Assembly (NCBI GenBank): GCA_009787785.1 | Contig: WQSR01000002.1 | Coordinates: 31,512 to 95,511 of the forward strand | DNA from: Defluviitaleaceae bacterium | GTDB taxonomy: Bacteria; Bacillota; Clostridia; Lachnospirales; WQUN01 | Direction: 5' to 3' | DNA: 64,000 nt | Shown: in pieces, positions 36,254 through 54,719 of the stretch | Position numbering within the stretch: position 1 is the first letter of the stretch | How the letters are laid out: each line of letters begins with the position of its first letter | Made by a program: the position numbers and the translations under genes | Notes under the pieces: model-generated | What the model saw: the letters and a program-made list of their open reading frames with translations, nothing else | Databases searched by the model: none | Told to the model about the DNA's origin: nothing

Positions 36254-36329
36254 GGCAACCTCCGCTTATTTTGTCAGTGTATAATCTAATCTACTGTAAC
36301 ATTGTTGTTTTCGTGTTTTACATATCCCC

Positions 36330-36573
36330 GTGGGCGGGGTTGGGTGAATGCTTGCGAACATATTCACGCCGTGGATGTGTGAGACGCCGCGCTGGCACGG
36401 GAAGGCTCATGAACGGCTCTGCGCGGCAAGTACTTGCGTTAGTCTCGCTCCGCGAGCCGAACGCCAAGTACTAAAGCCGCCCCTTCGCCGTTAATTTCAC
36501 CTTCCCGCGAGACGCGCTTGCCTCTCACACACCCACTGCGTGTGTTCGCAAGCATTCACCCAACCCCGCCCAC
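36330..36573. repeat. Long palindromic element 1 (subfamily A)
   Basis: Perfect 31-base arms (36330-36360 and 36543-36573) enclose a nested hairpin. Reading from the minus strand: a box GGCAAGCGCGTCTC (36522-36509), a GGGAAGG/CCTTCCC stem, an ACGGC/GCCGT stem, an apical AGTACTTGGCGTT/AACGCAAGTACT stem, and a box GTGCCAGCGCGGC (36398-36386). No credible open frame. The same two boxes and the apical motif occur in the neighbouring element in the opposite orientation. The 36254-36329 stretch before it shows nothing clear. Confidence 0.8.
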
Positions 36574-36611
36574 GAAACACCAAATACGCAATCAACGTGA
36601 CAGAGTAACTT

Positions 36612-36691: not shown

Positions 36692-36884
36692 GCGTGGTGG
36701 GGTGAAGCGGGGTGAATGGGCAAGCGCGTCTCACGAAGTCCCGTGATTAGTGGTGAATGGCGGAGTTATGTGGTTGGCGTTGAGGCTTCTGAAAGAAGAC
36801 CAACGCAACCACTTCTCCGACATAGCCAATCATCACGGGACGAGTGCCAGCGCGGCACATTCACCCCGCTTCACCCCACCACGC
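36692..36884. repeat. Long palindromic element 2 (subfamily A)
   Basis: Perfect 27-base arms (36692-36718 and 36858-36884). The interior holds GGCAAGCGCGTCTC (36719-36732), a GTCCCGTGA-type stem, an apical GTGGTTGGCGTTG (36770-36782) pairing with CAACGCAACCAC (36801-36812), and GTGCCAGCGCGGC (36844-36856). Box-to-box distance is 125 bases, against 124 in element 1. The arms are unrelated in sequence to those of element 1, while the apical TTGGCGTT/AACGCAA with its bulged G is shared. Non-coding. Confidence 0.8.
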
Positions 36885-43478: not shown

Positions 43479-43628
43479 GATTGGGAGCCGGGGGGCGCGG
43501 CTGGAAGTTGCGGCGAGCGATTGCGTGCGCCCCGTAGCGCATTGGCGCGGTGGGCTTCCGCGCCACCAGCGGAGGAAGGGCGTAGCATAGCGAGCGCAAC
43601 TTCCAGCCGCGCCCCCCGGCTCCCAATC
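43479..43628. repeat. Long palindromic element 3 (subfamily B), in the MerR leader
   Basis: Perfect 34-base arms (43479-43512 and 43595-43628). The core 43534-43574 reads GTAGCGCATTGGC, then a seven-base stem GGCGCGG/CCGCGCC around a seven-base loop, then ACCAGCGGAG. The same core, ungapped, occurs at 47295-47335 with two compensatory changes in the stem. The element starts about six bases after the predicted transcription start, so it would form the 5' leader of the MerR mRNA as one large hairpin. Confidence 0.85.
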
Positions 43629-43640
43629 TCCTCTACGCAC

Positions 43641-43671
43641 AGTATAATTCATTACGTTACGTCATGAGCAA
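43641..43671 (-). promoter_or_regulatory. MerR-type promoter of the second MerR-ABC operon
   Basis: Minus-strand TTGCTC (43671-43666), 19-base spacer, TATACT (43646-43641). The spacer contains ACGTAACGT on the minus strand (43662-43654), close to the ACGTATACGT operator of the first MerR operon; both are preceded by G and embedded in GACGTA. Confidence 0.65.
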
Positions 43672-43713
43672 GGGAAATTTTTTTGAAATTTTTGACACAT
43701 TTGGGGGGCCCGG

Positions 43714-44937
43714 ATGAACGCCTCGAACAAGCTGAGCTTTTATCTCATCGTAGTGAGCCAGGGCATCGGCTTGATAGGCGGGGAAGTATTGTATTTCGCC
43801 ATATCCCTCCACGTGCTGGACTTGACCGGCTCTGCGGAAATCTTTGCCGCTATGATAGCCATTTCATTCCTGCCCAGAATTATTTTCACGCCCCTGGGGG
43901 GCGCGATGGCCGACCGCTTCTCTAAGAAAATGATACTGGTCATCTGCGACAGCGCGAACACGATTTTGGTGGGCGTGCTGGCCCTTTTGCTCCTTGGCGG
44001 CAGTCAGTCCGTGATTCTACTGGGTGCCGCCGTTACGCTGATTACCCTCATTTCCACCTTCTACCATCCCACAGTGACGGCCAGCCTTCCCGCCGTGCGC
44101 AATGCCGGCGAGCTGGTGAAGGCCAATGGCCTGGTTCAAGGGATAAAGGCCGTTTCCCGTCTTTTGGGCCCCATCATGGCCGGTTTTTTATTTGCCGCGA
44201 TGGGCGTAACCTTCCTGGTGGGATTATGTGCCCTATTTTTCCTCTTCTCCGCCATTATCAATTTCTTCATTAAAATACCCCACCAAAAGCAAGCACGGGA
44301 AAGCGGCATGGTTAAAACCATCGCCGCCGACATAAAAGAAGGGTTCGTCTACATAACCCGGACGAACCCCGTACTTTTTAGAATAGCCATGGTCTTCACT
44401 GTGTTCATTTTGTTCTACCAGTCCATGCTGGCCGTGGCGTTCCCCTACATGCTACGGATTACCTTCGCCATGAGCGAAGCATCCTTCGGCTTCGCCAACG
44501 CCGGCATCGGCGTGGCCGTGCTGGCCGGGAGCCTCATCTCCGGCAAAATAAAGAAATACATGGAGATAAAACACCTCCCCTACTACATCGCGCTCATCGG
44601 AGCATTCACCGCACCCATAGCCCTGTCCATGCTACTGCCCATGGAAGGCACCCCCTTCCCGCCTCTGCTCATGATTTCCAGCTTTATGCTCATTATGTTT
44701 ATTTTTACGCTCATAAACGTATTAATCATGGCCTATACCCAAATCCACGTGCCCTCTCATATGGTGGGGAAGACCATCGCCCTCATCCTGTCCATTGTCA
44801 ATTTGTCGGCTCCGGTGGGTTTGTTCCTTCTGGGATGGTTGTTGGAAAACATGGCCGACGCGCAATTTATCATCTACTTCGCCATCGCCTTGTTCACACT
44901 CACCCTGGGACTGGTGGCGAAAAGGTTTGTAATGTAA
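43714..44937 (+). CDS. MFS transporter, EntS/MFS_3-like exporter
   Basis: A 407-residue major facilitator protein with 12 hydrophobic segments. The loop between helices 2 and 3 is GGAMADRFSKK, the typical MFS motif A region, and AVRNAGELVKANGLVQG is characteristic of the EntS/MFS_3 drug or siderophore exporters. It begins with ATG at 43714 next to a G-rich ribosome site. It ends convergently with the histidine kinase gene, overlapping by 38 bases. Substrate unknown. Confidence 0.85.
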   Translation: MNASNKLSFYLIVVSQGIGLIGGEVLYFAISLHVLDLTGSAEIFAAMIAISFLPRIIFTPLGGAMADRFSKKMILVICDSANTILVGVLALLLLGGSQSVILLGAAVTLITLISTFYHPTVTASLPAVRNAGELVKANGLVQGIKAVSRLLGPIMAGFLFAAMGVTFLVGLCALFFLFSAIINFFIKIPHQKQARESGMVKTIAADIKEGFVYITRTNPVLFRIAMVFTVFILFYQSMLAVAFPYMLRITFAMSEASFGFANAGIGVAVLAGSLISGKIKKYMEIKHLPYYIALIGAFTAPIALSMLLPMEGTPFPPLLMISSFMLIMFIFTLINVLIMAYTQIHVPSHMVGKTIALILSIVNLSAPVGLFLLGWLLENMADAQFIIYFAIALFTLTLGLVAKRFVM

Positions 44938-46411
44938 TCTCAAACACCGCCCCGCTATCCGGCGCATTGCGGTTTCTGGCGGTGATGCTACCGCCCATGC
45001 TCTTGATAATATCTTTGCAAATGGCGAGCCCCAGCCCGTAGTTGCCGTTCTCGCCCTTGTAAAAACGCTCAAAGATGTGTGAGATATCGCCGGGGTTAAT
45101 GCCTTCGCCGTCGTCCTGGATGGTGATTTTTATGCCCTGGGCGTCGGCGGCGCAGTGTAGGGCAATTTCCTTTTGCGCGTGGCGGATGGCGTTGGTGAGT
45201 ATGTTGGTGATGGCGCGTTCCAGCTTTTCGTAGTTGGCTTGGACAAAAATTTCTCCGGGTGGCGTGGACAACGCTATTTTTTTGTTTGCGTTCAGCGCGA
45301 TGGGCTTTATGCGTTCGCAACATTCGGTGAGCAAAGCGGGTAAGTCAATGGCTGTGGTGTCGCCGTTGTTTTCATAGTTGCTGTCCATGCGGGAGGCGTA
45401 GAGCAGCTCGTCCACCAGGCCGGCCATTTTGTGCCCCTCGGCCAGAATAATCTCCGCGCCTTCCTTTTTTTCAAACACACCGTCCAATAAGCCCTCGGCG
45501 AAGCCTTGAATAGACATCAGCGGCGTGCGCAGTTCGTGGGAGGCGTTCTGGAAGAATTGCTTTTGCTTGGCTTCATAGGCTTGCAACATGTCGGACATGG
45601 TGTTCATACTTTTGGAAAGCTGGGCGAACTCCGCGTCCTTGAACGCGCCGGGCTGGGTGCTGAAATTGCCTCGGCCAATGGTTTCGGCGTAGCTACACAG
45701 CCGGGCAATGGATTGCTTAAACCGGGACGAAAGGGACAGCGTGATGGCAAGCCCCGCAAGGCCCGACGCCACCAGCAATACACCCAAAATTTGATTCATG
45801 CGGTTGGTGAAGGTCATGGCCGAGGTGATGTCGGTATACATAAGGATGGACCATTCCCCCTCGGGCATGGGGCGGCGCAGGGCACTTACGTAGTAGGTGC
45901 TGGCGTTCCCGTGTACGCGGCGCATTTCGTTGGCGGTGAAGCGGGCGGCGTTGACGCGGTAGTACTCCGTCAAGAATTGGATTTTCGCCCCTTGCCCTTC
46001 CAGGAGAAAATCCATGTTGGGGGAGAGGATATACCCCGCGTCATCAATAATAATAACGCTTGTATCCACAATGGCGGCGCGTGGCGTGATGGGGCCGATG
46101 GTAAAGGAGGTGACAAAGGCGTGTTCACGCCCCGTGTCTGCATCCAAAAATAGCAGGGGTCGTTCCGCGAAGGGGCCAAGGTTTATCTCGCGGGGCGCGA
46201 TACGTAAAATCGCGTCCAGAGGCACGTCGTCGGAAATAAATACCGCTTCGGTGAAATTGACGGCATTAACCATGCCGATTTGCAACTCCCGTTCGGCAAT
46301 GCTACGGATATAGTTGCTGGATAACACATTAAACAAAAAATACACCACAAGGAAGCTGGCAAAGATGGCCCCGGTGTAGTAAATCACCATTTTGCGCGTA
46401 AAGCGGTTCAT
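44900..46411 (-). CDS. Sensor histidine kinase
   Basis: A 503-residue membrane kinase: helix 1 (about 8-30), an extracellular sensor (31-205), helix 2 (about 207-228), a HAMP linker, HisKA with phosphorylated His292 in SHELRTPLMS, and a HATPase domain with the N-box NILTNAIRHAQ, DDGEGI and GNYGLGLAICK. It overlaps the response regulator gene by four bases. The pair lies next to the propeller-type binding-protein operon on the opposite strand and may regulate it; this is inference from position. Confidence 0.92.
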   Translation of the reverse strand: MNRFTRKMVIYYTGAIFASFLVVYFLFNVLSSNYIRSIAERELQIGMVNAVNFTEAVFISDDVPLDAILRIAPREINLGPFAERPLLFLDADTGREHAFVTSFTIGPITPRAAIVDTSVIIIDDAGYILSPNMDFLLEGQGAKIQFLTEYYRVNAARFTANEMRRVHGNASTYYVSALRRPMPEGEWSILMYTDITSAMTFTNRMNQILGVLLVASGLAGLAITLSLSSRFKQSIARLCSYAETIGRGNFSTQPGAFKDAEFAQLSKSMNTMSDMLQAYEAKQKQFFQNASHELRTPLMSIQGFAEGLLDGVFEKKEGAEIILAEGHKMAGLVDELLYASRMDSNYENNGDTTAIDLPALLTECCERIKPIALNANKKIALSTPPGEIFVQANYEKLERAITNILTNAIRHAQKEIALHCAADAQGIKITIQDDGEGINPGDISHIFERFYKGENGNYGLGLAICKDIIKSMGGSITARNRNAPDSGAVFEITLQTFSPPVPG

Positions 46412-47100
46412 GTCTTCACCCTTCTCAGTCGGAATCCGTGGCCCCATATGGTTTCTATGGAGGCGGTGCTGTTGGCGTCGGTTAGTTTTTTTCGCAGGCG
46501 TTTCACGGTGGCGTCGGTGGCGCGGGTTTCCACCGCGTTGCCGTAGCCCCAGATTTTGTTAAGCAACTCCTCGCGGGAGATGGCGCGGTCCTGGTTGGCC
46601 AGCAGGTAGGTCAGCAGACTAAATTCCGTGTTGGTCAGCGGCAGTTGTGTGTCGGCGCAGTAGGCGGTGTATTTTTCGGGGTACAAAACGATATCCGCGA
46701 AATGGACGGAGGCGTCGGTTTTTTCCTCCGTGTCCATGGCCACGCGGCGGAGCATGGCCTTCACCCGCATAATCAGCTTCACAGGGCTGAAGGGCTTGGT
46801 GAAATAATCGTCGCTACCCAGGGAAATGCCCGAGATATAATCCTCGTCGGTGTCGCGGGCGGTGAGTATGATAATCGGTACCTTCGAAATGGCGCGAAGC
46901 TTTGTACATATAATAAACCCGCTACTGCCGGGCATCATTACATCCAGCACCACCAAATCGCAGGGGGCCTGGGTGAACGCTTCATATAATAGGTCGCCGT
47001 TTTCGAAGGCTTTCACCTGGTAGCCCTCCTTTTCCAGGTAGGAGCGTACCAGGTGGCGGATATTTCTTTCGTCCTCGGCAATGTAAATGAGTTGGCTCAT
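46408..47100 (-). CDS. OmpR-family response regulator
   Basis: A 230-residue regulator: receiver domain with phospho-acceptor Asp53 (VVLDVMMPG) and Lys in FTKPFS, and a C-terminal winged helix (ELLNKIWGYGNAVETRATDATVKRLRKK type motif around 170-225). It is the partner of the histidine kinase downstream. It diverges from the sugar-importer operon at 47460. Confidence 0.93.
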   Translation of the reverse strand: MSQLIYIAEDERNIRHLVRSYLEKEGYQVKAFENGDLLYEAFTQAPCDLVVLDVMMPGSSGFIICTKLRAISKVPIIILTARDTDEDYISGISLGSDDYFTKPFSPVKLIMRVKAMLRRVAMDTEEKTDASVHFADIVLYPEKYTAYCADTQLPLTNTEFSLLTYLLANQDRAISREELLNKIWGYGNAVETRATDATVKRLRKKLTDANSTASIETIWGHGFRLRRVKT

Positions 47101-47222
47101 GCAAACCCTCCGTGGGGGAAGTATACCACGCCAAAGCGGCGGGATTATTTTTGTCGCAATTTTGTTGCAATTTTAGGCTGATTTTGTCCCATGTGGATTT
47201 GTATAGTGTCCGAGCCAACAAG

Positions 47223-47437
47223 TTGGGGGTGGCCGAATGGGCACCGGAGCGCGGGGCCGGGGGTGTGACTTGCGGAGCGTCTTGCGAGCGAAACGTAGCG
47301 CATTGGCACAGTGCCTTTCTGTGCCACCAGCGGAGTGCCTTGAGCGTATTCGCATCGGCGAATGCGCTCAAGTCGCCGCCTAGCGTAGCAACCACACCCC
47401 CGGCCCCGCGCTCCGGTGCCCATTCGGCCACCCCCAA
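47223..47437. repeat. Long palindromic element 5 (subfamily B), ahead of an importer operon
   Basis: Perfect 45-base arms (47223-47267 and 47393-47437). Core 47295-47335: GTAGCGCATTGGC, stem GGCACAG/CTGTGCC with a seven-base loop, ACCAGCGGAG. A further hairpin TTGAGCGTATTCGC/GCGAATGCGCTCAA (47340-47371) is present only here. The right arm ends 22 bases before the start codon of the binding-protein gene. The 47101-47222 stretch carries the divergent control region with no strong promoter match apart from a TATAGT at 47202. Confidence 0.85.
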
Positions 47438-47459
47438 CAAATTTATGGGAGGAATGAAG

Positions 47460-53570: not shown

Positions 53571-54719
53571 ATGCCGCGTGTTCCGAAAATAATATGCTGG
53601 TGTGTGCTGGGGATTTTCCTCGCCTTGGGCTTTCGCGAAGCAAATACCATCGGGGCGTTTTCCCGCATATCCCTGCGCTTCGAGGCCCCCGTCAGCGGGG
53701 AAACGGCCCGCCAAGCGCGGATGCACGCCATACACTACCCAGGGGAAAATCCCTTCTGGCCTACCTTCTGGGCCCAGAAAACCGCGACCCTCATCGCGGG
53801 AGCGCGGGAAGCCCATGTGCCGACGCTCCTTTTTTCAGGGGACGCCGCACGGGTATGGCCCGCACGCTACCTTACGGGGAGTGCCCCCGGCGCGGCTGAT
53901 GGCTATGGCATCGCCATTTCCTATGCCCTGGCCCACCAGATGTGGGGTAGCACCGATATCCTGGGAAAACGCGCATACATAAACGACACACCGCGCATTA
54001 TACGCGGCATCTTCGAAGGCACCGCCCCGCTGGCCTTGCTCCCCTTCCCCATTGAAGACACCTCCCAAAGCTGGAACGCCGCAGAATTAACCGGCGGCAC
54101 ACCCCACGCCACGCGCCACCACGTAGAAAGCTTCGCCCTGGCCACGGGGCTGGGCACACCCCACTCCATTTACATGGGCGGCGCACACGCCCTAGCCCGC
54201 TTCATGGCCTGGTTCCCCATTTTCCTCCTCGCCCTGTACGGCGGCACCCTGTGCGTCCGTTATATCCGGGCACATCACCCCAAGCTAAGCATACCCCTGC
54301 TACTGAGCGGGCTCCTCCTTTTCGCTTTATGCCTGCCGTTTTTGCTCAACCGGCTTCCCCCCTGGATAATCCCCAACCAATGGAGCGATTTTTCCTTCTG
54401 GTCAGCACTGGCGCAACAAGCCTCAGCCAGCCTGCGCGAATTTCTATCCACCTACCCCACCCTCCGCGACGTAGCACTAAACATACACCTACTGCGCCAA
54501 GCGGGCATCCTATTTATTTCCCTATTTTGCTGTGCATCCCTATTAACACTACTCTCCGGTAAAAAAGCAGACACTGGCGCACGCTTTTTCCGCAATGCTT
54601 CGTTAGTACCTCCTTGCGCACCGCTGGTGCGCCGCGTCGGCACTTCCTCGCCTTGCGAAAAAATCCTCGCGCCATTATCTGCTTTTTTACCGGAGAGCAG
54701 TATAACAACCATAAAATAA
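53571..54719 (+). CDS. MacB-core-like membrane protein with palindrome-derived C-terminus
   Basis: A 382-residue protein: N-terminal helix (about 5-22), an extracellular region whose AISYALAHQMWGSTDILGK and RAYINDTPRIIRGIFE resemble the MacB periplasmic core domain, then three or four helices (about 205-340). No ATPase domain is present. The last ~50 residues (from SGKKADTG) are encoded by palindromic element 4, so the natural C-terminus has probably been replaced. It starts three bases after the adaptor gene stop, and the pair may form a stripped-down MacAB-like complex. Function unknown. Confidence 0.65.
   Translation: MPRVPKIICWCVLGIFLALGFREANTIGAFSRISLRFEAPVSGETARQARMHAIHYPGENPFWPTFWAQKTATLIAGAREAHVPTLLFSGDAARVWPARYLTGSAPGAADGYGIAISYALAHQMWGSTDILGKRAYINDTPRIIRGIFEGTAPLALLPFPIEDTSQSWNAAELTGGTPHATRHHVESFALATGLGTPHSIYMGGAHALARFMAWFPIFLLALYGGTLCVRYIRAHHPKLSIPLLLSGLLLFALCLPFLLNRLPPWIIPNQWSDFSFWSALAQQASASLREFLSTYPTLRDVALNIHLLRQAGILFISLFCCASLLTLLSGKKADTGARFFRNASLVPPCAPLVRRVGTSSPCEKILAPLSAFLPESSITTIK
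54552..54697. repeat. Long palindromic element 4, overlapping a coding 3' end
   Basis: Perfect 19-base arms (54552-54570 and 54679-54697), with pairing continuing through TGGCGC/GCGCCA and imperfectly inward. The minus strand contains GCGCACCAGCGGTGCGC, a perfect hairpin that shares CACCAGCGG with the subfamily B core. The element encodes the last residues of the gene ending at 54719 and lies just before the promoter of the next operon. Confidence 0.75.

Follow-up and report, generated by a model that had tools for sequence, protein, structure and literature searches.

Palindromic Repeats in Genomes and Genes

The best-known palindromic mobile elements that lie in frame within protein genes are those of Rickettsia. 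The Rickettsia palindromic elements (RPEs) are palindromes of ~100-200 nt, with several families per genome, found in frame in unrelated conserved genes; old copies have decaying arms (PMC10969869, PMC6649704). Bacterial MITEs are shorter than 500 bp, have terminal inverted repeats, no coding gene and a stable predicted fold, and are presumed to be mobilised in trans; conservation in ordinary MITEs is highest at the ends. In the GTAG-tagged repeats of REP/RAYT systems, GTAG is followed by an imperfect hairpin with an internal loop, stems show compensatory changes, and some copies are intragenic. Coding genes of Nematomorpha mitochondria contain perfect inverted repeats whose arm identity is maintained; each arm codes for conserved parts of the protein, and the description includes no mobile core (PMC6649704).

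The elements described here are a separate case, from Bacillota. The draft genomes that contain them are related to a termite-gut bacterium and carry several palindrome families apiece, and one trmD loop has been hit repeatedly. The window analysed (64,000 nt from a Defluviitaleaceae bacterium) contains two elements of one family, family A. With a probability of roughly 0.7, this family is a MITE-like mobile element of the foldback kind, non-autonomous and ~130-220 nt long, in Defluviitaleaceae-like Clostridia, and the two window elements are copies of it.

Two Elements in the Window

All features of the two elements are given on the forward (+) strand. Element 1 (43479-43628, 150 nt) lies between divergent genes for a MerR-type regulator and an MFS transporter, and element 2 (47222-47438, 217 nt) between divergent genes for a response regulator and a lipoprotein. 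The G-rich left arm of element 1 (43479-43512, 34 nt) is perfectly complementary to its right arm (43595-43628, 34 nt, 100%). In element 2, the G-rich left arm (47222-47267) carries the end motif GGTGGCCGAA, as in relatives, and its right arm (47393-47438, 46 nt) is again a 100% complement. The first-pass annotation had reported perfect arms of 34 and 45 bases; both are indeed perfect, but the second is 46 nt. When the window was resampled three times with a first-order Markov model, no inverted repeat as good as the arms of either element appeared.

The structured core of element 1 (43513-43595; L001:1480-1562) is a full covariance-model match at 95.6 bits. That of element 2 (47273-47357; L002:1479-1563) scores 36.6 bits and bears an additional side hairpin to its right. 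Each includes a conserved apical core of 41 nt, at 43534-43574 in element 1 (GTAGCGCATT-hairpin-ACCAGCGGAG) and at 47295-47335 in element 2. These align without a gap, as originally claimed, with 34/41 positions identical, and belong to a direct repeat 54 nt long whose two copies are 80% identical. The exchange of stem pairs noted between them, GGCGCGG/CCGCGCC in one element and GGCACAG/CTGTGCC in the other, is as it was described.

The arms of the two elements have a similarity score of 12 against 10.0 ± 1.6 for shuffled sequences, 18% of which reach 12. The earlier statement that the arms lack similarity therefore stands for this pair, but in origin the arms are not unrelated, as end motifs and target-site duplications (TSDs) are common to recent copies. 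Despite their unrelated sequences, all nine left arms examined in the genome that carries the window (hereafter the host genome) are G-rich relative to the orientation of the core, with G/(G+C) of 0.72-0.90.

Copy Number and Distribution

A search with the core in the genome and its relatives, which had been proposed at the outset, yielded further copies. The core pattern GTAGCGCATTGGC has nine matches in the 2.66-Mb host genome and none for the reversed control, so that the shared core is not due to chance. The pattern GCGCATTGGC..GCCACCAGCGGAG has ten matches there, two of them, at contig ends in C6 and C24, apparently being parts of a single element that the assembly divided. All genomes are drafts in which contigs break inside elements, and the host genome has further copies at contig ends. 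A covariance model (R1) built from eight host-genome copies gave 13 matches in the host genome, 10 in G025, 6 in G032, 4 in G030 and 1 in G031, amounting to ~34 copies. These five genomes, out of 38 searched in the family, span four genera, and the remaining 33 had none. With a broader covariance model and stricter filters that lose weak matches, the same five genomes were recovered among 392 at the level of the order (zero in 354 outside the family), and the host genome alone among 391 at the level of the class. Among the matches listed from an exact-pattern scan of genome contigs, almost all were chance occurrences lacking palindromic arms, L120 being the exception. Nearly all viral-contig matches were likewise chance ones without such arms, and a stricter viral pattern gave none. 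Plasmid and phage searches did not detect the element.

Ends, Target-Site Duplications and Mobility

Recent copies have a common end motif, GGAGTGGCCGAA. In G032 the outer arms end GGAGTG..CGAA..CG; several copies in the host genome have degenerate ends. G025 copies have CACGGAAATCAATTTTC ends around a GGGGGAGTGGCCGG stretch, and their TSDs are 9 bp long: the flanks of nine copies or internal-deletion derivatives match at a mean of 7.67/9 positions against 2.1 for swapped flanks, and five of the nine are perfect. Single TSDs have been observed in G032 (L226, L231). Shared end motifs and target duplications in recent copies argue for a mobile repeat family that has multiplied by transposition. 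The window copies, with GGTGGCCGAA/GGAGTGG-type or degenerate ends, are without clear TSDs. One imperfect and suggestive candidate flanks element 2, with AACAAGTT on the left (47217-47224) differing by one mismatch from AACAAATT on the right (47436-47443).

Terminal inverted repeats of ISAs1 type have been seen on the G025 copies only and not on those of the window. In G031, a 360-bp internally deleted insertion sequence with CACGGAAATCAATTT ends, nearly those of G025, encodes the C-terminus of an ISAs1-type transposase (NF033564 transpos_ISAs1, E=3e-19; 69.2 bits against a cut-off of 70, for a fragment). We infer that the G025 group was moved by ISAs1-type transposition. A DDE transposase would act in trans, of ISAs1 type for the G025 group and of another type for the GGAGTGG-ended group that includes the window copies. 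An intact autonomous transposase with ends like those of the family did not turn up, nor did a partner insertion sequence for the GGAGTGG ends; the host genome has no match to the DDE_Tnp_1 or Transposase_mut (PF00872, IS256-type) profiles.

Two candidate elements were rejected. A 2.1-kb stretch of G032:C79 with inward GGAGTGG ends has a nucleotidyltransferase/UvrA-like ORF (identified by eye) and no matching TSD, and is interpreted as two partial copies rather than an autonomous element. An end pair in G025:C40 encloses a urocanate-hydratase-like gene, also named by eye, and is ascribed to chance. Family-A ends also occur on short remnants and on derivatives that have no core (L329, L331, L335 and L299-L301), as palindrome deletion would be expected to produce. 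A palindrome in G025:C53 (L334) has a GGAGTGGCCGAATCGCG end motif and a different interior.

Movement of REP/RAYT-type repeats (GTAG and an imperfect hairpin) by a Y1 transposase is a highly improbable account of the family. It is suggested by GTAG directly preceding the imperfect hairpin CGCATTGG..CCACCAGCG in most copies, as in GTAG-tagged REPs (PMC3733652). GTAG is replaced by GAAG or GGAG in L262, L232 and L241, however, the elements are 130-220 nt with long terminal arms, and no Y1_Tnp (PF01797) was detected in the host genome. TSDs are present in the family, and IS200/IS605-type transposition is not known to make them.

Fold of the Core

Over 32 copies, the 23 modelled pairs of the core are 94.5% paired, against 78.4% in shuffled alignments. 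Both sides have changed in 16 of the 23, with 114 two-sided changed cells against 34. The covariation score is 0.426, compared with 0.139 for shuffled alignments and 0.09 or less for slid structures. The numbers are tilted towards the fold by relatedness among the copies and by an alignment made to fit the structure; the slid control retains the relatedness. Identity in the unpaired stretches around AGCGCATT and ACCAGCGGAG is 0.81-1.0 at all but one position, and at stem positions it falls to 0.4-0.5. The combination of covarying pairs and near-invariant internal loops indicates that the fold of the core is under constraint. Loops more conserved than stems would be expected of a fold that is recognised, and mutational arm repair alone would not explain unpaired loops that are nearly invariant. 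The core fold may be kept by selection because a single-stranded form (RNA or extruded DNA) is recognised by some partner.

A plain repeat, with conserved arms and no covariation, had been named as the outcome that would overturn the first-pass annotation; the covariance model and test reveal strong covariation in the core. That annotation took paired changes as pointing to selection on RNA or single-stranded DNA rather than simple duplication. The covarying core and invariant loops agree with this; the paired changes alone are no proof, because template switching in replication creates both sides in one step (PMC8794818). More generally, covariation alone does not prove a functional RNA.

The family might instead be a dispersed structured small RNA or riboregulator that the host keeps for a function of its own and transcribes into rod-like RNAs. 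Covarying stems with invariant asymmetric internal loops would suit such a role, as would the position of both window copies between divergent genes and the conservation of the core across differing end types. The sporadic occurrence in 5/38 family genomes, the TSDs and the intragenic insertions in both orientations make it unlikely. In addition, no Rfam family scored above its gathering threshold in the window region and none of relevance exceeded the cut-off at the element loci, where sub-threshold matches were of the miRNA type that arises by chance.

Arm Drift and Palindrome Repair

The arms diverge far faster than the core. Between copies, left arms differ by 20.4% and cores by 3.5% in G032; in G025 the values are 13.6% and 4.7%. 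With arms trimmed by hand, arm differences in G032 were two-sided in 66 cases and one-sided in 24, and in G025 the bias was the opposite (51 two-sided, 111 one-sided). Compensatory pairs can arise and be maintained through template switching (PMC8794818), so that pairing of the arms is weak evidence for selection. Fast arm drift that is mostly two-sided in G032 makes template-switch repair a serious alternative to it. Perfect arms could be kept mainly by replication template switching or by hairpin self-priming. We propose that arms maintained on their own template would drift as pairs and soon look unrelated.

In its extreme form this account has the arms perfect purely by mutation, the likeness of the cores due to recent common descent, and the fold unselected. 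It draws on the same template-switching precedent and the G032 bias, and on the coding palindromes of Nematomorpha, which have been argued to persist through repeat conversion (PMC6649704). Three observations render it unlikely: loop bases are invariant over 32 copies whose paired bases have been replaced, asymmetric internal loops have survived where template switching across them would remove them, and in the hemZ and trmD copies the arms have been left to decay rather than repaired. Since arms and core evolve differently within one molecule, the family offers a natural set of copies with which selection on a fold can be separated from mutational repair of a palindrome.

Copies Inside Genes

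Four intragenic copies, which lay outside what the first-pass annotation could see, are in frame and free of stops, in genes for a CopA-type ATPase (L262), HemZ (L228), TrmD (L263) and a 2-hydroxyacyl-CoA-dehydratase-type activase (L264). The copA, hemZ and activase inserts are sense to the core and are read in one common frame (..ERL..PRSAL..); the TrmD insert is antisense. Alignments (phmmer) to solved TrmD and CopA break at the insert. Open frames are a minority in the elements (35 of 144), so that chance preservation in all four copies is unlikely; the chance of finding four insertions both in frame and open (24% x 1/3 each) is ~4e-5, a value that assumes independence and was computed after the cases had been seen.

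The TrmD insert is missing from G001, G003 and others. In G002 (L339) and G004 (L338), which are of the same genus, a different perfect in-frame palindrome occupies the same TrmD loop; the L339 ORF is anchored at an upstream YGGG in a usable TrmD alignment. TrmD of G022 has a decayed-looking insert. TrmD is widely essential, and trmD occurs once in the host genome apart from a redundant contig end, so the gene bearing the insert is presumably functional. An intact second allele on contig C70 was considered and rejected: it repeats exactly 2,079 bp of the trmD region of C34 and stops before the insert, which marks assembly redundancy. Intragenic copies may persist where they lie in frame in surface loops, being translated through as Rickettsia palindromic elements are.

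Removal of the insert from the gene product, by splicing of a small intron or by byp-like translational bypassing, is very unlikely. Copies within conserved genes and a structured core could be accommodated by it, and untranslated palindromic elements bypassed by the ribosome are known from Magnusiomyces mitochondria (PMC6649704). It does not account for open, in-frame sequence in four of four intragenic copies when so few element frames are open, or for the single frame shared by the sense inserts, and no Rfam ribozyme or intron was matched. Bolder than the mobile-element reading itself, and rather unlikely, is that the folded core is the unit under selection: a selfish RNA or single-stranded DNA module that swaps terminal repeats and hence transposases, has its arms rewritten by self-templated copying, and colonises essential genes in frame.

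Other Palindromes

Other palindromes were surveyed in the window and a further 400 kb, on which their density is based. A second family, with GGGTGAATG-type ends, GGCAAGCGCG / CAGCGCGG internal motifs and G-rich perfect arms, is found at window positions 36329-36574 and 36692-36884 and at L366:12323-12503. A third has the core CCGCAAT..CTTCCT..CTTGCG and differing arms, and occurs in the window (54552-54697), at L354:6571-6730 and near the 3' end of L376. Its window copy is read in frame near the 3' end of an ORF. A nested long palindrome with CGGGAGTGGC ends has been detected at L365:19076-19377.

Comparison with Known Systems

Family A resembles the RPEs in element length, in the coexistence of several families per genome, in its in-frame copies in unrelated conserved genes and in the decaying arms of old copies. 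This likeness is one of description; the CGTC end tag reported for RPEs (PMC3733652) was not noticed on casual inspection. Unlike RPEs, family A has a Bacillota host, arms that vary between copies around a conserved covarying core, TSDs and an end match of the insertion-sequence type. The compensatory stem changes and intragenic copies recall GTAG-tagged REPs, from which the elements differ in being far larger, in having TSDs and in a host genome without a Y1 transposase. Like the Nematomorpha palindromes they place perfect inverted repeats in coding genes; unlike them, they have a common core and TSDs and insert additional peptides. With bacterial MITEs they share small size, terminal inverted repeats, the lack of a coding gene, a stable predicted fold, presumed mobilisation in trans and, in G025, TSDs. 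They depart from MITEs in having two end types around the same core and arms of 22-52 nt that change in pairs. The family is thus closest to MITEs and Rickettsia palindromic elements, with a reversal: it is the interior that is conserved and the ends that change.
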